Shown here: in pieces, positions 2,702 through 33,930 of the stretch
How positions within the stretch are numbered: position 1 is the stretch's first letter
Layout: each line of letters starts with the position of its first letter
Virus record (IMG/VR): IMGVR_UViG_3300009184_000015
Span: 1 to 35,069 of that record
Source of the DNA: a virus
Reading direction: 5' to 3' (one strand)
Length of the DNA stretch: 35,069 bases
Notes under the pieces: generated by a model
Databases searched by the model: none
What the model was told of the DNA's origin: nothing
Seen by the model: only the letters and a program-made list of their open reading frames with translations
Made by a program: the position numbers and the translations under genes

Positions 2702-3219
2702 TGCAATACTCCTCTCGCCGCGAGAGATCTCGCTCTTTTGATTAACTGAATATTGCCCCTGGTTAACACGTTGATTGTGTCGATCTTTTCTTCCAGGTAC
2801 ATCGCGGCCCATACTGGATCACACTCAAAGGCCAGCTCGATCGTGCCAAGATTTGAAATGATATCGGCCAGCTTAATCGTCTGCGCCTCTGCACACGCAT
2901 TCGATAGGATCGTGCGATTGATGTACGCCCTGGCCATTCGATCACCGTCTGACTTGTCGGCGGCATTCGTTACTTGGTACACCAGGCGCGCAACTCTTTC
3001 ATTGAACTCGATCACTAGGTCGGTGTAAGTCACGTTGCAATCCTCAATAACATCGTGCAAAACTGCGGCGGCCAGGACATCATCGCTACTACAAACACCG
3101 CGAACAATCTGCATCACTTCCATGGGGTGAGCGATGTAAGGCACCCCGGAAAACTTACGCAACTGGCCATCATGCGCCTGGTCCGCAAACTGCACCGCTC
3201 TAGAAATTAAGTTACTCAT
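2698..3219 (-). CDS. HD-domain small alarmone hydrolase-like protein (SpoT/Mesh1 type)
   Basis: A 173-residue HD phosphohydrolase resembling the (p)ppGpp-hydrolase half of RelA/SpoT proteins and the stand-alone Mesh1/SAH enzymes. The metal-binding residues are all present: YIAHP (His31), LHDVIED (His55, Asp56, with Glu59-Asp60) and KLADIISN (Asp119). The AHDGQLRKFSGVPY stretch is the usual RSH opening. No synthetase or regulatory domain is attached. A hydrolase would lower the stringent-response alarmone in the infected cell, or could act on a related nucleotide. It overlaps the recombinase gene by four bases (ATGA) and is followed by two tiny membrane genes. Family is clear; substrate is inferred. 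Confidence 0.85.
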   Translation of the reverse strand: MSNLISRAVQFADQAHDGQLRKFSGVPYIAHPMEVMQIVRGVCSSDDVLAAAVLHDVIEDCNVTYTDLVIEFNERVARLVYQVTNAADKSDGDRMARAYINRTILSNACAEAQTIKLADIISNLGTIELAFECDPVWAAMYLEEKIDTINVLTRGNIQLIKRARSLAARGVLQ

Positions 3220-3902
3220 GCTAACGCTCCCTCGTATCTATTGACAACATTACGAACTGCACTAATCGACCAGGCTCTTTTGCCGGTGGCCGTTGCAATT
3301 CCCCTGGCACTCAAACCCTGGGCGATTTTCTCCAAGGTCTTGCAACCGAACTCGCGCAACTCTGCAATCACCGGGTAAACCTGGGAAGCGAACTCGTTTG
3401 CTTGCCCCGCCGTAGCCAATCCCCCGGCCTGGGCGCCGTTGGCTGGTGTAGGTGAACCCAATGTCATGCCCCTGGCCTTGCGCGCCGCCAGGGCCTTCTT
3501 AGTACGGTCAGAAATCTGAGCGCGCTCTAGCTCTGCCACGTTGGCCATCAGCTGGAGAATGAATCGGCTCATCGCTGGGTCCTGAAGGTTTGGCATATCG
3601 AGTGCCATGATCGGGACCTGGCGATCCAAGAGCGTAGTCAAGAATCCGACGTTACGGGTTAGACGGTCAAGCTTGGCAATCATCAGGGTCGCGCCTTCTC
3701 TTTCGCATTGCTCCAGGGCCGCGCGCAATTGTGGTCTGCGCTTGTCAGTCTTGCGGCCGCTTTCGATCTCAACATACTCGGACACTAGCTCATAGGGTGA
3801 GCTGGCCAGGAATCGATTGATGGTATTTTTTTGGGCCTCTAAACCCAGGCCGCTCTCGCCTTGTTTCTTGGTACTCACACGGTAATACGCAATTACTTTC
3901 AT
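3216..3902 (-). CDS. Small serine recombinase (resolvase/invertase family)
   Basis: A 228-residue site-specific recombinase. The N-terminal catalytic domain shows AYYRVSTKKQ with Arg8 and nucleophile Ser10, then KLDRLTRN with the active-site arginines Arg80 and Arg83, and the long helix around ELERAQISDRTKKALAARK. A short C-terminal helix-turn-helix (EKIAQGLSARGIATATGKRAW...) should bind DNA. It is close to small resolvases and far shorter than large phage serine integrases, so inversion or multimer resolution is more likely than classical integration, though integration is not excluded. No crossover site was identified. It overlaps its neighbours by four bases on each side. Confidence 0.9.
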   Translation of the reverse strand: MKVIAYYRVSTKKQGESGLGLEAQKNTINRFLASSPYELVSEYVEIESGRKTDKRRPQLRAALEQCEREGATLMIAKLDRLTRNVGFLTTLLDRQVPIMALDMPNLQDPAMSRFILQLMANVAELERAQISDRTKKALAARKARGMTLGSPTPANGAQAGGLATAGQANEFASQVYPVIAELREFGCKTLEKIAQGLSARGIATATGKRAWSISAVRNVVNRYEGALA

Positions 3903-5393: not shown

Positions 5394-5585
5394 ATGAGCG
5401 AAAACCCCACAAAACCCACCCAGCTACACCTTACCGAGCGATTGCGCCGCGAACTTCAGGAGCAATCCAGTAAAGAACGCCGCTCAATGTCAAGCCTGGC
5501 GGAAGAGTTAATCGCCCTGGGCCTGGCCGGCCGCCGCACTAGCGTAGAAGATCGCATTGACCAGGTGATCCATGGCCGGGGGTAA
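5394..5585 (+). CDS. Arc-like ribbon-helix-helix regulator
   Basis: A 63-residue protein with the ribbon-helix-helix layout: a short strand TQLHLTERLRREL giving the beta ribbon and first helix, then SSKERRSMSSLAEELIALGL for the turn and second helix, close to Arc repressor. Members dimerise and insert the beta ribbon into tandem operator half-sites. It probably controls the divergent minus-strand operon and perhaps itself through the adjacent 11-bp repeats. No Shine-Dalgarno is visible before the start (ACCACACAATG), so translation may be weak or from a leaderless transcript. It overlaps the next gene by 14 bases. Confidence 0.8.
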   Translation: MSENPTKPTQLHLTERLRRELQEQSSKERRSMSSLAEELIALGLAGRRTSVEDRIDQVIHGRG

Positions 5586-5934
5586 GCGTAACCGCGAGCG
5601 GGGCGCGGAACTAGAACTCGAAGTCGTGCATACCTGGAAGGCCGAGGGCATTGAAGCCCAGCGCGTCCCGTTATCAGGCGGAGCTGGCGGGATGTTTTGC
5701 GGCGACGTTATGCTGGCCGGCTATACGATCGAATGCAAGCGGCGCAAGACAGGATTTGGCGTACTGTATGACGCCCTGGAGCAACAAGGAAGTGACTTCC
5801 TGGTAGTGAGAGCTGACAGGAAGCCGCGCTTGTACGTGATCCCGGAAGAGACAATGCTCTTGTGGCATCGTCAATACGGGCTTTTTAATTTCAACTTAGC
5901 AAATAGCAAGAAGGAGCAAGACAATGAGCTTTGA
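5572..5934 (+). CDS. PDDEXK nuclease, Holliday-junction-resolvase-like
   Basis: A 120-residue nuclease of the PD-(D/E)XK fold. Visible features are RERGAELELE (Glu13), the RVPLSGGAGG loop, GDV (Asp45), and ECK (Glu54, Lys56), followed by a helix and LVVRADRKPRLYVI. The pattern R-x-P-x-S-G then GD(V/I), E-x-K matches small resolvase-like or RecB-like nucleases carried by phages. It could resolve branched replication intermediates before packaging, or nick DNA. It overlaps the regulator upstream by 14 bases and the ssDNA-binding candidate downstream by 11. Confidence 0.75.
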   Translation: MAGGKRNRERGAELELEVVHTWKAEGIEAQRVPLSGGAGGMFCGDVMLAGYTIECKRRKTGFGVLYDALEQQGSDFLVVRADRKPRLYVIPEETMLLWHRQYGLFNFNLANSKKEQDNEL

Positions 5935-6493
5935 CTTAGGACTTACCGGCGAAGGCGGCGGGCAATACATCCGTTACAACGCAAGCACCGGCACCTGGAA
6001 CGTTGATGGCGAACAGATCCAACTAGGGCAATTCCTGGTAGATCCAACGAGCCTGAAAACAGGATGGGGAAAGATCGTGGCCGGATCATCACCGAGCTGG
6101 TCATGGGACACGCGGCCGGGTGTTAAAGGCGATCAGCCTAGCGATGAACACAAGCGCGGATTCTCTTTGCAAATGTATTCCAAAACGATTGGCCAGCGCG
6201 AGTGGTCCACCAACTCAGCTGGTAGCAACAAGGGATTGTCCGCAATTTGGGGGCAGATCTCGGACCAGGCGGTAGCTAACCCTGGCAAGGTGCCAGTCTT
6301 AAAGTTTACCGGCGCAACAGTTATCGCGATCGGCAAAGGATCCACCCAGGTACCGAATTTCGTCCTGGAAAAATGGGTCGATGCACCAGCCGATTTTGCT
6401 TTGTACGATCCACGTGGGTTTACTCAGGAACAAATTTCAAAACCAGCCCCAGCCAAGGCCCCAGCGCCAGCGGCATCTGACGACGAATTTTGA
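5924..6493 (+). CDS. Candidate phage ssDNA-binding protein
   Basis: A 189-residue protein with a beta-rich body (LGLTGEGGGQYIRYNA, FTGATVIAIGKGS) and a flexible Ala/Pro tail ending SDDEF. A disordered linker with an acidic tip and a terminal phenylalanine is the design of T7 gp2.5 and of bacterial SSB, where the tip contacts replication proteins. Position between a resolvase-like nuclease and the primase-helicase fits. An OB fold cannot be proven by eye. Strong Shine-Dalgarno (AAGGAG) before the start. A clear terminator follows the gene. Confidence 0.6.
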   Translation: MSFDLGLTGEGGGQYIRYNASTGTWNVDGEQIQLGQFLVDPTSLKTGWGKIVAGSSPSWSWDTRPGVKGDQPSDEHKRGFSLQMYSKTIGQREWSTNSAGSNKGLSAIWGQISDQAVANPGKVPVLKFTGATVIAIGKGSTQVPNFVLEKWVDAPADFALYDPRGFTQEQISKPAPAKAPAPAASDDEF

Positions 6494-6542: not shown

Positions 6543-8441
6543 ATGACGGAATTGGTACAACACATAGAACAAGTCGCCCAGTATTTTTGGGGCGAACCAA
6601 ATACGAAGTTATCCAAACCTGGTAAAGAGATCCGGTTTGGAACCCATGGGTCCAAGTCAATCGATCTTGAAAAGGGAACCTGGTATGACCACGAACAAAA
6701 CGAAGGCGGCGGCGTATCAGATCTCATCAAGAAAGAAACTGGGGGCGCGAAGATCGAAGCCTGGATGAGTGAAAACTTAGGCATCCATCTCACGCCCAGG
6801 GCAAGCAAGACAGAAGATCTTAGGCCCATCATCCCGCGTCGCATCAAAGAAGTCTATCCGTACGTCAATGCGTACGGCGAGATCGTTTACGAAGTCATTC
6901 GCTTTGAGCCAAAAGACTTCCGGCAAAGGCGCCTGGAGAATGGCAAACACGTATGGAACCTTCAAGGCGTTACGCCCTTACCTTACAACCTTCCAGCTAT
7001 CCTGGAGCATCCGAGAAAGACTATCTTCCTGGTCGAAGGGGAGAAGGATGTCGAGGCCCTAAAGAAACTGGGATTGCTGGCATCTTGCAACTCAGGCGGT
7101 GCCAAGAAATGGACCCAGGATTTGAACCCGCATTTTGCCGGGCGCAAGATCATCGTATTGCCGGACAACGATGAGGCCGGCCGCAATCACGCTAAAGTCC
7201 TGGTCGAGCAATTGGCCAGCGTTGCCCAGGAAGTCCGCATCCTGGAACTGCCGAACCTGAAAGAGAAGGCCGATGTATTCGATTGGATACAGGACGGCGG
7301 ATCGAAGGACCAGCTGGTACAACTGGCCAAGGTCGCGCCCCTGGCAAAAGATTGGCAAGCACCCGTTAGCCCGCCCAGGTTACGCATTCTCACGTTAAAA
7401 GAGATCGCGCAATTGCCGCCAGTCACCTGGCTAGTCAATGGATTGATCCCAAAACAATCCCTGGCCATGATCTACGGCGAACCTGGCGGCGGTAAAACTT
7501 TCACGGCGCTAGATATTGCGCTTACCGTTGCACACGGCGCGCAATGGCATGGCCATGAAGTTACCAGGGGGCAAGTATTCTACGTGGCCGGCGAAGGCGT
7601 TGGCGGATTTAGAAAGCGGATCGGAGCCTGGCATCTGCATCACGAACGCGAAGAGCAAGCGCCATTCTTTCTGATTCCTAAAGCCGTCAACCTACTGGAT
7701 GACAACGAAATCTTGGACCTACTGCAAACGATCGAGACAACCAGGGACCCGGAACTCCCCGTCGCGATGGTGATATTCGATACGGTAGCTCGGTGCATGA
7801 TCGGCGGCGATGAGAACTCCGCCCAGGACATGGGAAAAGCGGTTAAGAACATGGACCTGGTACGCGAGGCCCTGGGGTGCGCCGTACTGCCCATCCATCA
7901 CTCCGGAAAAGATAGCAACAGAGGTGCCAGGGGATCTACTGCCCTCATAGGTGCCGTGGATGTCAGCATCAAAGTAGAGCGCGATAACGATCGCCTACTG
8001 CTCACCACCGAGAAACAGAAGGACGCCGAACCGTTACAACCGATGCAATTTAAGACGATCAGCGTTGAGCTGGCCACCGGTCCCTTGTCCCTGGAAGCGG
8101 AAACCAGCCTGGTATTGGAAGCCACCGACCAGCCAGCGGACATCGTGGCCAGGAAGAAGCTATCGGGCCAGCAAAGACTTATCCTGGACGCGTTGCACGA
8201 TGCGCTATCGAACGCCGGGGAACAGAGATCGATCGGCAACTACATTCCGAAGGGTTACTACTCGGTGAGCGAATCATTGTGGCGCGACTTCTCGATGAGC
8301 AAACAGATCAGCGATGGATCGGAAGATAGCAAGAAGAAAGCATTTTTACGCGCCGCGAAAGCGCTCCAGGAACGCGGCATTGTTGGCAAGTGGGACGATT
8401 ATTGTTGGATATGGAAGGACAGGCATGAACCTAAATTATGA
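6543..8441 (+). CDS. Primase-helicase (TOPRIM plus RepA/AAA_25 ATPase)
   Basis: A 632-residue fusion for replication fork opening and priming. The TOPRIM part has VEGEKD (Glu165) and LPDNDEAGR (Asp208, Asp210). The RecA-type motor has Walker A GEPGGGKT (312-319), a Walker B-like VIFDTVAR near residue 405, and the HHSGKDSNRGARGS motif typical of RepA-like hexameric helicases. The zinc-ribbon seen at the N-terminus of T7 gp4 is absent, so template recognition must differ or priming may be lost. The C-terminus (from about 540) is a helical, winged-helix-like tail. No Shine-Dalgarno is seen: the bases before ATG are the T-run of a terminator. Confidence 0.9.
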   Translation: MTELVQHIEQVAQYFWGEPNTKLSKPGKEIRFGTHGSKSIDLEKGTWYDHEQNEGGGVSDLIKKETGGAKIEAWMSENLGIHLTPRASKTEDLRPIIPRRIKEVYPYVNAYGEIVYEVIRFEPKDFRQRRLENGKHVWNLQGVTPLPYNLPAILEHPRKTIFLVEGEKDVEALKKLGLLASCNSGGAKKWTQDLNPHFAGRKIIVLPDNDEAGRNHAKVLVEQLASVAQEVRILELPNLKEKADVFDWIQDGGSKDQLVQLAKVAPLAKDWQAPVSPPRLRILTLKEIAQLPPVTWLVNGLIPKQSLAMIYGEPGGGKTFTALDIALTVAHGAQWHGHEVTRGQVFYVAGEGVGGFRKRIGAWHLHHEREEQAPFFLIPKAVNLLDDNEILDLLQTIETTRDPELPVAMVIFDTVARCMIGGDENSAQDMGKAVKNMDLVREALGCAVLPIHHSGKDSNRGARGSTALIGAVDVSIKVERDNDRLLLTTEKQKDAEPLQPMQFKTISVELATGPLSLEAETSLVLEATDQPADIVARKKLSGQQRLILDALHDALSNAGEQRSIGNYIPKGYYSVSESLWRDFSMSKQISDGSEDSKKKAFLRAAKALQERGIVGKWDDYCWIWKDRHEPKL

Positions 8442-8559
8442 GCTAAATGTAAGGGTTAACCCTATAAAAGACGGACAAAACGGACTTGTCCGGAGCCTGT
8501 GGATAACTTTGCTGGCGGACATTGACGGACAACACGGACAGACAAGGAGAACCAAATGA
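8425..8559 (+). CDS. Possible small protein across the repeat region (44 aa)
   Basis: Short frame starting MNLNYELNVRVNPIKDG with an AAGGA ribosome-binding site at good spacing. It overlaps the end of the helicase gene by 17 bases and the next gene by four (ATGA), which favours real translation. The body contains DGQ and GQ repeats only because the DNA holds CGGACA repeats. It is basic at the end and unrecognised. It may exist mainly to keep ribosomes moving across a DNA-level element. Confidence 0.45.
   Translation: MNLNYELNVRVNPIKDGQNGLVRSLWITLLADIDGQHGQTRRTK
8498..8506 (-). promoter_or_regulatory. Consensus DnaA box
   Basis: TTATCCACA on the minus strand, identical to the high-affinity bacterial DnaA box, lying inside the CGGACA repeat cluster. 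A single exact match alone could be chance; its location between helicase gene and iteron-like repeats makes recruitment of host DnaA plausible. Confidence 0.55.
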
Positions 8560-9236
8560 ATACAAGGGTTGTAGGGCGACGGACAAAGACGGACAAGGGA
8601 GCGCCAAGCACGGACAGACATTTCTCCTCTCTAGGAGAATGTCCTGTCTTGTCCGGCGGACCAGTTGATGCGTTGGATCGTTGGAAAGATTTAAACCAGG
8701 TGAAGATTTATCGTGATGAGTTGAATCGATTTAATGAAACCTGGGGCTATACAAGATCTTTCACTTTGTGCGGCGATGAGTTGGCAAGCAAGCTCCGCAA
8801 ACAAATGACGCTTATCCAGGAGACGGCCAGGGATGCTAAAGCGGGATATCTTGTCGAGCAGAGATGCGAGGCAATGATCCGGGGATTGCGCCTGGCAGAT
8901 CAAAGGATCCGCGAAGCTGGACACCAACCCGTGGACCGGACCGAGTGGCAAGCGGAACATCCGGCCGGGTTAGTAGTGAAACTGGTACGAACACGGGCCG
9001 CGATACCCCAGGATTCAGATTACGCGTACTTCGCCCTGGAAGATGTGGTCAAGTGGATCCCCAAGGAAGTGATCGAGCTAACCAAGCAATTCCCTGGGTC
9101 GTCAACGGTCAAGGTAACAACGGCCTTCGAGCAGATCCGCAAATCAACCGAAGAACGCCTGGCACGTGAGGCCGCGACGCCGAAGGTCAAGACGGGCGAC
9201 ACAATAATGGACCTGGACGATGACATCCCATTCTGA
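8556..9236 (+). CDS. Replication-block protein with SSB-type C-terminal tip
   Basis: A 226-residue protein of unknown fold. Its last residues, MDLDDDIPF, are nearly identical to the C-terminal tip of E. coli SSB (MDFDDDIPF), the peptide that docks exonuclease I, PriA, RecQ, RecO and other partners. The body does not look like an OB fold: it is mainly helical with DELASKLRKQMTLIQETARD and RCEAMIRGLRLADQRI. Start at 8556 has AAGGAG six to seven bases upstream. It follows the iteron region, and its first codons contain part of the repeats and hairpin. It may be a helicase loader, origin binder or SSB mimic; none is proven. Confidence 0.75.
   Translation: MNTRVVGRRTKTDKGAPSTDRHFSSLGECPVLSGGPVDALDRWKDLNQVKIYRDELNRFNETWGYTRSFTLCGDELASKLRKQMTLIQETARDAKAGYLVEQRCEAMIRGLRLADQRIREAGHQPVDRTEWQAEHPAGLVVKLVRTRAAIPQDSDYAYFALEDVVKWIPKEVIELTKQFPGSSTVKVTTAFEQIRKSTEERLAREAATPKVKTGDTIMDLDDDIPF
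8613..8648. other. Long imperfect stem-loop beside the iterons
   Basis: Arms pair over 15 bp with one bulged base on each side: GACAG-ACA-TTCTCCT against AGGAGAA-TGT-CTGTC, loop CTCT. It lies within the coding start of the SSB-tip gene and directly adjoins the last CGGACA copy. Single-strand initiation or regulation of translation are both possible. Confidence 0.5.
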
Positions 9237-9897
9237 GAAACCAAAGACACGCAAGTATTCGATACTCCCGGCGAGATCCGTCCAGGATGACAGTTTGCAC
9301 CCAACGACCTTCCGGGTCCTGGCCGCAATCTGTTTGCATACGAACGGATACGGCATTTGCTTTCCATCCAGGGAGACACTAGGCAGACACGTCAGCAGAT
9401 CGATTAAAACCGTCTCTACGCACGTCGGACGACTAATCAAGGCCGGGTATATCAGAAAGCTCCAACCAAAGGCCTATCCCTTTGCATTTCGCCGCAGATC
9501 AGCCTACTTCACGAATCGCTACCAGGTACTCTTCGATGGTCCTGGAACACCGATGCCGACCAGGGAGCAATTCCTAGCCGCAAGGCCTCTAATCGCAGAG
9601 GATGACGAATACCGGGAAGAGATGGACGACCTCAATAATAAGAAGGGGGGTATGGGGGGTGATAGCGAGCTAGTTCAGAGTATTGCTCAAGCATTCCGCC
9701 AGGGCGTCGAACGCGGGTCCGGCGTGGTCCGCGACGTGGCGGCAAGCCTGGAATGCGCCAGGCGACTGGCAGATAAGGGCGTGGATGCCGGCAAAGTGCT
9801 GGAGCTGGCAGTCCAGGCGACCATCGACAACCGGAAAAACCGCAAGGATCCACCGATGACGCTGGACCAAGTGGCAAAGTGGGGCGGATTAGAGTGA
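9220..9897 (+). CDS. Winged-helix replication protein (HTH_36-like)
   Basis: A 225-residue protein. Residues 20-80 form a helix-turn-helix of the type common in plasmid and phage replication initiators: HPTTFRVLAAICLHTN, then FPSRETLGRHVSRSIKTVS and HVGRLIKAGYIRK. A linker of Gly/Met follows, encoded by two G6 runs, and then a helical C-terminal domain (ECARRLADKGVDAGKVLELA). It overlaps the preceding gene by 17 bases. It is the best candidate to bind the CGGACA repeats, by analogy with iteron-binding initiators, but this is inference. Confidence 0.75.
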   Translation: MTSHSEKPKTRKYSILPARSVQDDSLHPTTFRVLAAICLHTNGYGICFPSRETLGRHVSRSIKTVSTHVGRLIKAGYIRKLQPKAYPFAFRRRSAYFTNRYQVLFDGPGTPMPTREQFLAARPLIAEDDEYREEMDDLNNKKGGMGGDSELVQSIAQAFRQGVERGSGVVRDVAASLECARRLADKGVDAGKVLELAVQATIDNRKNRKDPPMTLDQVAKWGGLE

Positions 9898-10051: not shown

Positions 10052-10204
10052 ATGAGTCCATGGTTAATCATCGTTACTGGTGCAATTTACGCATATATCG
10101 GGGTGGAACAGGGTGTAAAAGGCAACCTGGCAATGGCCATCGTGTATAGCGGCTACGCGTTTAGCAATATTGGCTTGTATTACCTGGCTTTAGCTAAACC
10201 ATGA
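10052..10204 (+). CDS. Small two-span membrane protein (50 aa)
   Basis: A 50-residue protein starting MSPWLIIVTGAIYAYIGVEQ. Two hydrophobic segments (residues about 3-17 and 27-46) are joined by a short polar loop GVEQGVKGN, predicting a helical hairpin in the inner membrane. I have an impression of similar short proteins in other phages but know no function. A weak GGA lies 11 bases before the start. Its last 25 bases overlap the end of the HNH gene on the other strand. Confidence 0.6.
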   Translation: MSPWLIIVTGAIYAYIGVEQGVKGNLAMAIVYSGYAFSNIGLYYLALAKP

Positions 10205-10581
10205 ACACGTCTGCGTCGCAGTTTTGGAGTTTTCTTTTTATCCATAGTCTCTTGCCAATGCAAAATGCGGTGGCAATTAGAGCAAAGGGCAATACATTTG
10301 GTAATAATTTCGTGCATTGCCTTGGCATACGATCCATTTCTAACCAGGCCACTCACGGACTTTTTATCCGTACGAATGACGTGGTGAAAATCAAGGGCGG
10401 CCGGATGATCGAATCCGCAAAACATACATTCTTGCGTTTCTTTGAACTCGGCCCACAATTTGCGGTATGCAACCCTATTTTTTGCGGTGCCGGCCTGGTG
10501 CTTTGCTTTATTTTTTTGGTACCAACGCTTATTAGCCTCGGCGTTTTTGATGCCGCGAATTTTGGGATCTTTATACGGCAT
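10180..10581 (-). CDS. HNH endonuclease
   Basis: A 133-residue HNH nuclease. The zinc-supported site is clear: CMFC (Cys52, Cys55), LDFHHV (His66-His67), and CSNCHRILHW (Cys100, Cys103, His104). The basic N-terminus (YKDPKIRGIKNAEANKRWYQ) and Lys/Arg-rich tail should contact DNA. It is the only minus-strand gene in a long run of plus-strand genes and overlaps the tail of the small membrane gene, which looks like a free-standing homing endonuclease insertion. No intron or split gene is apparent next to it. No Shine-Dalgarno is visible. Confidence 0.8.
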   Translation of the reverse strand: MPYKDPKIRGIKNAEANKRWYQKNKAKHQAGTAKNRVAYRKLWAEFKETQECMFCGFDHPAALDFHHVIRTDKKSVSGLVRNGSYAKAMHEIITKCIALCSNCHRILHWQETMDKKKTPKLRRRRVHGLAKAR

Positions 10582-11007: not shown

Positions 11008-11180
11008 TTTGCCAATTTTGCGTAGATGATAGTGGCTCTAATTTTTCGAAAACAGAAGTCCTGGAGACGAGAATGTATTGGGATCCTAATGATGAAATCT
11101 ATTACAACGAACGCCGTCGCCAATGCCTGGCTTGCGAGACGCGTTTTGCGACAGTAGAGAGGATGGTAGAGGATGACTAA
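11004..11180 (+). CDS. NrdR-type zinc-ribbon protein (58 aa)
   Basis: A 58-residue protein with the zinc-ribbon of the NrdR ribonucleotide-reductase repressor: ICQFC (Cys3, Cys6), TEVLETR, then RRRQCLACETRFATVE (Cys41, Cys44). In NrdR this part binds NrdR boxes; the ATP-cone domain that senses dATP/ATP is missing here. It could interfere with host control of deoxynucleotide supply or act on phage DNA. It is linked by a four-base overlap to the DUF3310 gene and an eight-base overlap to the small terminase. Confidence 0.75.
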   Translation: MICQFCVDDSGSNFSKTEVLETRMYWDPNDEIYYNERRRQCLACETRFATVERMVEDD

Positions 11181-11589
11181 GCTAACCGTGCGCCAGGCAC
11201 GTGCTTTATTAACGTCCCCGGAGAACCAGGAAAAGGTATCGGCCGAATTGGGCCACATTGCCCAAGCGGATATAACGGACGTCATCAGCTGGACCGGTGA
11301 CGTGGCCGTACTCAACGCCAGCGAAACCCTGGCCCCTCACGTACGTAAAGCAATTAAGAAAGTTCGGATCACTCCTGGCAAATATGGCAACTCTATCGAG
11401 GTAGAGATGCACGATAAACTGGGCGCCTTGCGTATGCTGGCCCGCGCGACAGGCATGATGGACCAAACCCCGGAAGAAAGTAATCGCCCGACGATGATCG
11501 GAATCAAATTGAATTTATCAAAAGTGGAAGAGGTAATCTATGCCAAGGAAAATGGGCGCGACGGGTCGGAACCGACAGACAGGGAATGA
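11173..11589 (+). CDS. terS: Terminase small subunit
   Basis: A 138-residue DNA-recognition subunit of the packaging motor, terminase_2-like. It shows the N-terminal helix-turn-helix region (TVRQARALLTSPENQEKV) and the family stretch IEVEMHDKLGALRMLARATGMM typical of phage small terminases. Its gene overlaps the large subunit by 50 bases. It should bind the pac or cos site, which I could not locate. Assignment rests on motif and context. Confidence 0.85.
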   Translation: MTKLTVRQARALLTSPENQEKVSAELGHIAQADITDVISWTGDVAVLNASETLAPHVRKAIKKVRITPGKYGNSIEVEMHDKLGALRMLARATGMMDQTPEESNRPTMIGIKLNLSKVEEVIYAKENGRDGSEPTDRE

Positions 11590-13090
11590 GTTAGATGCGC
11601 TGGGGGATCTTAGCCTGGACTTCTCGACAAGTCCAACGACTTCGCGATTTCTATCTGACGATTCTTTTTTTCGCGGTCTTATGGGACCGGTCGGCTCCGG
11701 GAAGTCGTATGGATGCGCGTCGGAAATACTCTTGCGCGCGGTGCGGCAAGCGCCTTCCCCGGTGGATAATGTTCGTTACACACGATTTGTGGTCATTCGA
11801 AATACCTACGGGGAACTTCGGACCACAACGATTCGAACCTGGCTTGAAATATTCCCGGAGCATATTTGGGGTCCGATTCGCTGGTCCCCGCCGATTACTC
11901 ACCATCTGCAATTGCCCACTAGAGATGGGGTGCCGGGATTAGATTGTGAAGTAATCTTCCTGGCCCTGGACGATACCAAGTCGGTACGTAAACTCTTGTC
12001 CCTGGAAGTGACTGGCGGCTGGTGTAACGAGGCGCGCGAGTTGCCGCTTGCCGTGATCCAAGGACTGACGGCCCGTGTAGGGAGATACCCTAGCAAAACT
12101 CACGGCGGTTGCACTTGGCGCGGGATATGGGCCGACACGAACCCGCCCGATGATGACGGCTGGTGGTATCGCTTGGCCGAGAAAGAACCGGTCAAAGGTA
12201 AATACAAGTGGAATTTTTATACGCAACCAGGCGGCATGATCGAGGTCCCGGCCGATACTTCGGGCGCGATCTACGCGGCCGGCAAGCATTGGCTTGATAA
12301 CCCGAACGCCGAGAACGTACGCAATTTGCCAATTGGATACTATGAGCAACAGTTAGGCGGCAAGAACCTGGACTGGATTCGTTGCTACGTGGGCGCGCAA
12401 TACGTGTACGTCCAGGAAGGTAAAGCCGTATGGGCAGAGTACGACGATTCCACGATGACGGACGATACCCTGGTCTATACCCCGGAGTTACCGTTACTAA
12501 TTGGATGCGATTTTGGTTTAACTCCCGCGGCGGTAATCGGACAACGTTTGCCGTCCGGCGCCTGGCACATCCTGGAAGAGATTGTCACCGAAGATATGGG
12601 CCTTCAAAGGTTTGGACAGATGCTCTTGCAACAACTCAACATGAAGTACCCGAAGGCCGAGGTAATCTTGACGGGCGATCCGGCCGGCCAGGCTCGCGAT
12701 CCGATCTTCGAGACAACGGCATTCGATCACTTGCGGACCCTGGGCTTTAGCAAGGTCCAACCCGCGCCAACCAATGACTTTGGAGTACGTCGTGAAGCTG
12801 GCGCCGCGCCCATGATACGGCTGATCGATCGAAAACCGGGTTTGAGAGTGGCGCGCACGTGTCCAAAATTACGGAAGGCGCTTGCTGGTGGTTACCATTT
12901 TAAACGAGTAGGCATACCAGGTGAGGAAAGATTTAGGGATGCGCCGAATAAAAACCAGCATTCGCACGTCGGGGACGCGTTTTCGTACTTGATGCTAGGG
13001 GGCGGGGAATATAAGCGCCTGACCAGGAGTGGATCGTCATCTAGTTATGGCCAACAATATACGGCCGAGTTTGATTTTGATATTCTCTAA
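11540..13090 (+). CDS. terL: Terminase large subunit
   Basis: A 516-residue packaging ATPase and nuclease. The ATPase has Walker A GPVGSGKS (49-56) and the Walker B/coupling region CEVIFLALDD...GGWCNEARE. The RNase H-like nuclease shows GCDFGLTP (Asp324), LTGDPAG (Asp380) and HVGDAFSYL (Asp479). A GAGG ribosome-binding site supports the start inside the small-subunit gene. The packaging mechanism cannot be read directly; a circular assembly is compatible with headful packaging. Confidence 0.95.
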   Translation: MPRKMGATGRNRQTGNELDALGDLSLDFSTSPTTSRFLSDDSFFRGLMGPVGSGKSYGCASEILLRAVRQAPSPVDNVRYTRFVVIRNTYGELRTTTIRTWLEIFPEHIWGPIRWSPPITHHLQLPTRDGVPGLDCEVIFLALDDTKSVRKLLSLEVTGGWCNEARELPLAVIQGLTARVGRYPSKTHGGCTWRGIWADTNPPDDDGWWYRLAEKEPVKGKYKWNFYTQPGGMIEVPADTSGAIYAAGKHWLDNPNAENVRNLPIGYYEQQLGGKNLDWIRCYVGAQYVYVQEGKAVWAEYDDSTMTDDTLVYTPELPLLIGCDFGLTPAAVIGQRLPSGAWHILEEIVTEDMGLQRFGQMLLQQLNMKYPKAEVILTGDPAGQARDPIFETTAFDHLRTLGFSKVQPAPTNDFGVRREAGAAPMIRLIDRKPGLRVARTCPKLRKALAGGYHFKRVGIPGEERFRDAPNKNQHSHVGDAFSYLMLGGGEYKRLTRSGSSSSYGQQYTAEFDFDIL

Positions 13091-33679: not shown

Positions 33680-33930
33680 TAACCATAAAACAAATTGATG
33701 CACTTTACGAACTTTATCCACAAATAGTTACAACACAAGACAACATTGCTTACGATGCAGATGGCAACGAAGTAACTTATGACATAACTGCCGTCAATGC
33801 CAAAGTTGCACAAAATGAATCAGATAAAGTTGCACAAGAACAAGCACAAGTATCTGCAAAGGCTTCTGCACTAGCTAAACTAGCCGCATTAGGTTTAACC
33901 CAAGACGAAGTTAAGGCCTTGGTGGGGTAA
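33676..33930 (+). CDS. Putative tail fibre assembly-type protein (84 aa)
   Basis: An 84-residue protein: ITIKQIDALYELYPQIVTTQ, then IAYDADGNEVTYD and a helical C-terminus AKASALAKLAALGLTQDEVK. Similar proteins follow fibre genes in many phages and may aid fibre assembly. Start chosen at 33676 because it has GGAGG six to seven bases upstream and an ATGA overlap; a longer frame from 33640 reads into the previous gene. Function inferred from place only. Confidence 0.65.
   Translation: MITIKQIDALYELYPQIVTTQDNIAYDADGNEVTYDITAVNAKVAQNESDKVAQEQAQVSAKASALAKLAALGLTQDEVKALVG

Follow-up and report, generated by a model that had tools for sequence, protein, structure and literature searches.

An SSB-type C-terminal tip on a helical protein encoded beside a putative phage replication origin

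SSB is seen as both a coat and a recruiting hub because its tip sits on the coat protein. Many host proteins dock on this tip (PMC10018359, PMC5872125). The window examined here, a viral DNA stretch of 35,069 nucleotides (IMG/VR record IMGVR_UViG_3300009184_000015), encodes a protein at 8556-9236 that ends in ...GDTIMDLDDDIPF before its stop codon. The last of these residues, IMDLDDDIPF, depart at one position from the MDFDDDIPF of E. coli SSB, which may not be the SSB of this phage's host. Why should a protein without a Pfam, PHROG or NCBIfam match in profile searches carry the docking peptide of SSB? If the hub peptide does operate on another protein, coating and recruiting would be shown to be separable. 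A preliminary description had noted this ending on a non-SSB protein, and we find that the open reading frame ends as described and that no SSB profile matches it.

The gene belongs to a replication module (Table 1) of fixed order: nuclease, SSB-like protein, Toprim/AAA_25 primase-helicase, a ~110-nt gap bearing iteron-like repeats, and the tip-protein family. The primase-helicase matches PF13481 (E 5e-41), Toprim_2 (E 4e-6) and the primase/helicase family phrog_239 (E 4e-41), and the winged-helix call on its tail was made by eye. The SSB-like protein preceding it (5924-6493) has no Pfam match above cut-off and no PHROG, and its Pro/Ala-rich acidic tail ends in ASDDEF, without an IPF tip. It is homologous (E 5e-18) to L049-type proteins, which end in DDDIPF. 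Its model is beta-rich and of low confidence (pLDDT 47), with weak OB-type matches to eIF5A and Rfa1 (Z 2.1-3.0); position, tail and these weak fold hints make it a probable phage SSB. On the other side of the tip gene, residues 9-85 of the 9220-9897 protein match the replication initiation families phrog_270 (E 6e-9) and phrog_391 (E 1e-7). Profiles for DNA polymerases A, B and III-alpha and for PF00436 SSB match their positive controls and find nothing in the window or in the records of three relatives; any of these four records may be a fragment.

Table 1. Coordinates of the replication module and of other features of the window.
Feature	Position	Strand	Basis or remark
RusA-like Holliday junction resolvase / nuclease	5572..5934	+	phrog_244 E 4.4e-11; first module gene
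Probable phage SSB, 189 aa	5924..6493	+	homology to L049-type proteins; slot before helicase
Primase-helicase: Toprim + RepA/DnaB-like AAA_25 + C-terminal winged-helix-like tail	6543..8441	+	Pfam, PHROGs
Putative replication origin, six CGGACAA repeats, both orientations	8472..8655	.	repeat enrichment
Exact DnaA box TTATCCACA inside origin	8498..8506	-	sequence; every close relative aligned has it
AAGGAG ribosome-binding site of tip protein	8544..8549	+	sequence; precedes ATG
Helical replication-module protein with SSB-type tip	8556..9236	+	226 aa
SSB-like C-terminal tip MDLDDDIPF	9207..9233	+	sequence; conserved tail
Winged-helix, O/DnaD-like replication protein	9220..9897	+	PF13730 HTH_36 E 8e-11; start overlaps tip codons
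Small-terminase candidate	11173-11589		phrog_51
Large terminase subunit (TerL)	11540-13090		phrog_2 E 2e-25

The body of the protein had been described as helical and without an evident OB fold, with structure prediction and an OB-fold search proposed as the check. An AlphaFold2 model built on an alignment of eight relatives contains ten helices and no strand at a mean pLDDT of 56, with values of ~80 at residues 41-120 and below 50 at 1-36, 128-169 and 208-226. An absent OB fold is thus well founded in the N-terminal half, and in the second half, where pLDDT is low, it is likely without being certain. In the model, the tip-bearing tail is disordered, in keeping with a docking peptide. Searching the PDB for similar folds produced no OB-type match (best Foldseek E 1.7), and in structure alignment Z did not exceed 6.4, with common helical bundles as the matches. 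Sequence profiles against the PDB gave nothing usable, the best match being tankyrase at E 0.029. The PF00436 profile, which is positive in 12 of 14 control genomes, has no match in the protein, nor has the gp2.5-like SSB family phrog_112, which the SSBs of CRP phages match at E 6e-16. Pfam and PHROGs also reveal no HTH or winged helix in it, whereas the neighboring 9220-9897 protein has one. The absent profile match and the strand-free model together argue strongly against a canonical SSB.

Conservation of the tip can be followed at two depths. Thirteen close relatives were found in IMG/VR, all 13 ending in D(L/M)DDDIPF, and identity is 81-97% for the 12 full-length sequences. The next gene begins (ATG 9220) within the tip codons, which allows the two reading frames to be compared. 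In one relative (L012), the tip codons differ from those of the window by two GAC>GAT changes and one CCA>CCC change, all silent in the tip frame, and two of these changes are missense in the downstream gene that overlaps them (T2 to I, H4 to P; MTSH becomes MISP). Because the changes are silent in the one frame and not in the other, the tip frame appears to be the constrained one, which points to selection on the tip.

At greater depth, 15 representatives of the tip-bearing clade, each below 50% identity to the others, have a mean identity of 0.28 overall, of 0.09 over the 12 residues preceding the last six, and of 0.66 over the last six, a value that is an underestimate because the gene of one representative (L219) is split in two ORFs. 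Ten representatives of the other clade have the same overall mean, 0.28, but their last six residues average only 0.07. Endings in the tip clade are mostly (D/N)D(D/E)(I/L)PF, near the bacterial consensus, across deeply diverged phages. Persistence of the ending while body identity falls to 28%, together with the L012 changes, silent only in the tip frame, rules out a tip that arose by chance or was imposed by the gene overlap.

Searches with the tip protein alone returned close relatives only. No homolog in an isolated phage was found with the window protein as query, its core segment yielded only E 5 matches in Methylophilales phages, two scans of genome contigs recovered no relative, and the motif VRGWxALDxEA had 0 viral matches. 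The family was widened by a search anchored on the helicase. Two such scans, in which the tip was not a selection criterion, each covered 80 loci, and iterated profiles detected the helical family at 153 loci and the SSB-like family at 157. Phage MW202711 (L177) and the Roseobacter phages CRP-811, CRP-821, CRP-823 and CRP-831 carry a distant relative of the tip protein downstream of the same helicase; the window family and L177 showed no significant similarity in an initial profile comparison, and homology became clear only with the helicase-anchored scans. Homology across the clades is independent of the tip. A tip-clade profile stripped of its last 10 residues recovers every one of the 72 tip-less members from loci with the tip on the SSB-like protein (worst E 1.2e-9) and matches no non-family ORF among 3476.

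Members share the order SSB-like protein, helicase, short gap, helical protein, the median gap being 114 nt in one clade and 132 nt in the other. They also share a motif series of approximately KWGxDRLxxLVxxxLRxRF ... MxRAYxALExxA ... VVxSxEE ... FPGAxV, followed by a variable linker and, where present, the tip. Comparison of 39 members with PHROGs gave weak single matches only, and the family, which is without a Pfam or PHROG entry, is previously undescribed. A hub peptide operating on the tip protein would assign a likely role to this unannotated family, which is present at the 153 loci gathered here. In MW202711.1, the helical protein ends in SDPIPF and the primase-helicase (L177:3870-6170) ends in ...FDDIPFD, which resembles the SSB tip extended by a single residue.

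The preliminary description also placed an origin directly ahead of the tip gene, and the window bears this out with an exact DnaA box and a cluster of repeats. CGGACAA occurs 11 times in the window against 4.8 expected, and the six copies at 8472-8655 extend into the first 35 codons of the tip gene. The repeats and the DnaA box are conserved in close relatives. Three of these (L006, L007 and L009) carry 1-nt and 8-nt deletions in the repeat-bearing start of the gene that sum to 9 nt, and because the frame is kept, the N-terminus of the tip protein is probably translated. The arrangement recalls the lambda O-type initiators, since lambda ori lies within gene O and its origin repeats likewise enter the start of a gene. 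Unlike those initiators, the tip protein has no detected winged helix; that domain sits in the next gene, 9220-9897.

Repeat-rich gaps (p<=0.01) occupy the same position in 44 of 68 representative loci and in 0 of 68 control stretches within the helicase. Exact DnaA boxes are ~24-fold denser in these gaps (8 in 25.8 kb) than elsewhere in the loci (7 in 533 kb), and the repeat sequences vary from lineage to lineage. The gaps of CRP phages (L180-L183) contain two repeat types, CTACAAA and GTATAAA, which pair with two versions of the helicase C-terminus that are 97-100% identical within a type and ~71% identical between types; the helicase region just before the C-terminus is 97-100% identical in all. 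This pairing is consistent with a helicase tail that reads the origin repeats in CRP phages, although linkage by itself could also account for it. At 8452-8465, just ahead of the window repeats, lies a palindromic AAGGGTTAACCCT-type element, and a related sequence, AACCCTTTAGGGTTT, occurs in the CRP phage gaps; the two are possibly a conserved origin element. A second exact DnaA box (TTATCCACA) is found at 33714-33722, near the right end of the record and outside the replication module.

The distribution of the tip between the two proteins of the module is mutually exclusive. Of the 140 loci in which both proteins are complete, 62 carry the tip solely on the helical protein and 72 solely on the SSB-like protein; 6 have it on neither and 0 on both. 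Tip-less SSB-like proteins in the window's clade mostly end in DLF, DDEF or similar. In CRP phages, a gp2.5-like ssDNA-binding protein takes the SSB slot immediately ahead of the helicase; it ends in LDDDIPW or LDDALPF and is unrelated to the window SSB-like protein except in its tail (profile comparison), and the helical protein of these phages is without the tip. On a helicase tree, a deep, weakly supported branch sets apart the loci whose SSB-like protein bears the tip, and the state with the tip on neither protein arose three times, always inside the helical-tip side. The long branches of CRP and MW202711 leave their position uncertain, and an independent-pairs test had no power. Because the swap amounts to one split, possibly two, the exclusion has little independent replication; it is best read as one old, well-preserved relocation, perhaps with a second in the Roseobacter CRP phages, and not as many independent events.

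We tentatively propose, at somewhat less than even odds, that in a large group of uncultured phages the tip moved between two proteins of one module. The SSB-like protein would have kept it in one clade, and an origin-adjacent non-SSB adaptor would have acquired it in the other, where the SSB-like protein was given a different tail, so that coating and recruiting became separated with one tip carrier per module. The tip is dispensable in some phages because six loci (L185, L186, L187, L191, L192 and L194), representing three losses, have it on neither protein; their helical proteins have tails such as NDEI, DDEIK and DDISL. These natural losses are useful for probing tip function.

What might such a protein do? 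We give a probability of about 0.55 to the reading that it serves as an adaptor at the replisome or origin, with a tip that brings in host proteins able to bind SSB. Its folded part, comprising the helical N-terminal domain and the conserved second part, would act at the origin or fork with the primase-helicase encoded upstream. The disordered C-terminal tail would display the tip to host proteins that normally use it to reach SSB-coated DNA. The phage SSB-like protein would coat ssDNA without a tip, dividing coating and recruiting between two proteins, whereas in the sister clade one SSB-like protein carries the tip and the helical family goes without. Binding of the chi subunit of the Pol III holoenzyme to the SSB tip is an established route for Pol III. 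Because no phage DNA polymerase was found in the window or the three relatives' records, chi is favored as the first docking partner, with PriA next: a phage with a helicase-primase and an SSB-like protein and no polymerase must capture that of its host. If correct, the adaptor would offer a simple test of the host factor captured by a polymerase-less phage. We infer docking, partner and site of action, as well as the SSB role of the 5924-6493 protein.

An appreciable but clearly smaller chance goes to the reading that the tip serves the phage replisome itself, binding a phage partner such as the primase-helicase, an annealase or a nuclease, or a basic surface of its own protein, with the likeness to the host tip being secondary. 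The tails of SSB and gp2.5 can fold back on the basic surface of their own protein. The tip gene adjoins those for the phage helicase and the O-like protein, and the SSB-like proteins of the module retain acidic tails of their own that end in F. A precedent exists in phage HK620, another case in which the last six residues of a phage protein recruit a partner: the SSB tail NDYPPF is required for binding phage Sak4, the partner studied, although its carrier, unlike the tip protein, is a bona fide SSB (PMC5928155). However, endings near the bacterial consensus across diverged phages are what a conserved host pocket would be expected to maintain, and the helicase is present in both clades, whichever protein bears the tip.

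The preliminary description left open whether the phage hijacks or titrates host proteins. As a decoy, the tip would occupy host SSB-binding proteins, such as ExoI, RecQ or PriA, and weaken host replication or repair, and its near identity to the host type, judged from E. coli SSB, which may not be the host's, suits this role. However, the gene is a fixed member of a replication module rather than part of a variable early region. Recruitment is favored over titration because the SSB-like protein of the same module bears the tip in sister phages, which recruitment fits better. Host hijack by the proposed adaptor is therefore plausible, and titration is less likely, indeed improbable.

There is very little chance that the protein is an ordinary phage SSB with an unrecognized OB domain, a reading that draws on its SSB-type tip, its location in the module and the poor modeling of residues 128-169. 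Against it stand the missing strands, PF00436 match and OB-type fold match, together with a separate SSB-like gene in the module at 157 loci, replaced by the gp2.5-like SSB in CRP phages. Its top BFVD match, the 89% identical UniProt A0A6J5NZ37, is named a small terminase subunit, an identity that is scarcely credible and that we reject by gene location and by the better TerS candidate directly ahead of the large subunit (Table 1), given also that TerS profiles in PHROGs do not match the protein and that the family goes with the helicase and not with the terminase.

Comparison with known systems helps to separate what is familiar from what is new. The last six residues are the same as those of the bacterial SSB tip (SSB-Ct, DDDIPF), which is likewise acidic and located at the extreme C-terminus after a variable linker. 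In contrast with bacterial SSB, the carrier has no detectable OB fold or PF00436 domain, and the module has a separate SSB-like protein. The T7 gp2.5-like proteins (phrog_112), which in CRP phages precede the same helicase as the occupants of the SSB slot and bear the tip there, are unrelated to the window tip protein. The preliminary claim of a non-SSB replication-module protein with an SSB-type tip stands, with the tip conserved and the origin adjacent, although the case is less isolated than described.

A census of viral ORFs ending in DDDIPF found at least 114 proteins of at least 60 aa, with an SSB domain in at least 30. Among the matches listed, others belong to ResIII, DEAD and Helicase_C models (at least six each), DUF669, Pam3 gp34, ERF and DnaB-like proteins. 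These non-SSB proteins are of other families, and only L132, a distant member, matches the tip-protein family among the matches listed. Carriage of the SSB tip outside SSB thus looks widespread in phages, and we found no description of it on a non-SSB phage replication protein in the open-access literature. The docking peptide was already known; the carrier family and the coat/adaptor swap are not known from that literature.

Several further observations were made along the way. Small helical proteins of 73-80 aa and a DnaB-like fragment, all ending in DDDIPF and without an SSB domain, are also present among L026-L145. Elsewhere in the window, two genes lie on the minus strand: an HNH endonuclease gene at 10180-10581, opposite to the gene direction, and at 3216-3902 a gene for a serine-recombinase-like DNA invertase or integrase (phrog_125, phrog_95).
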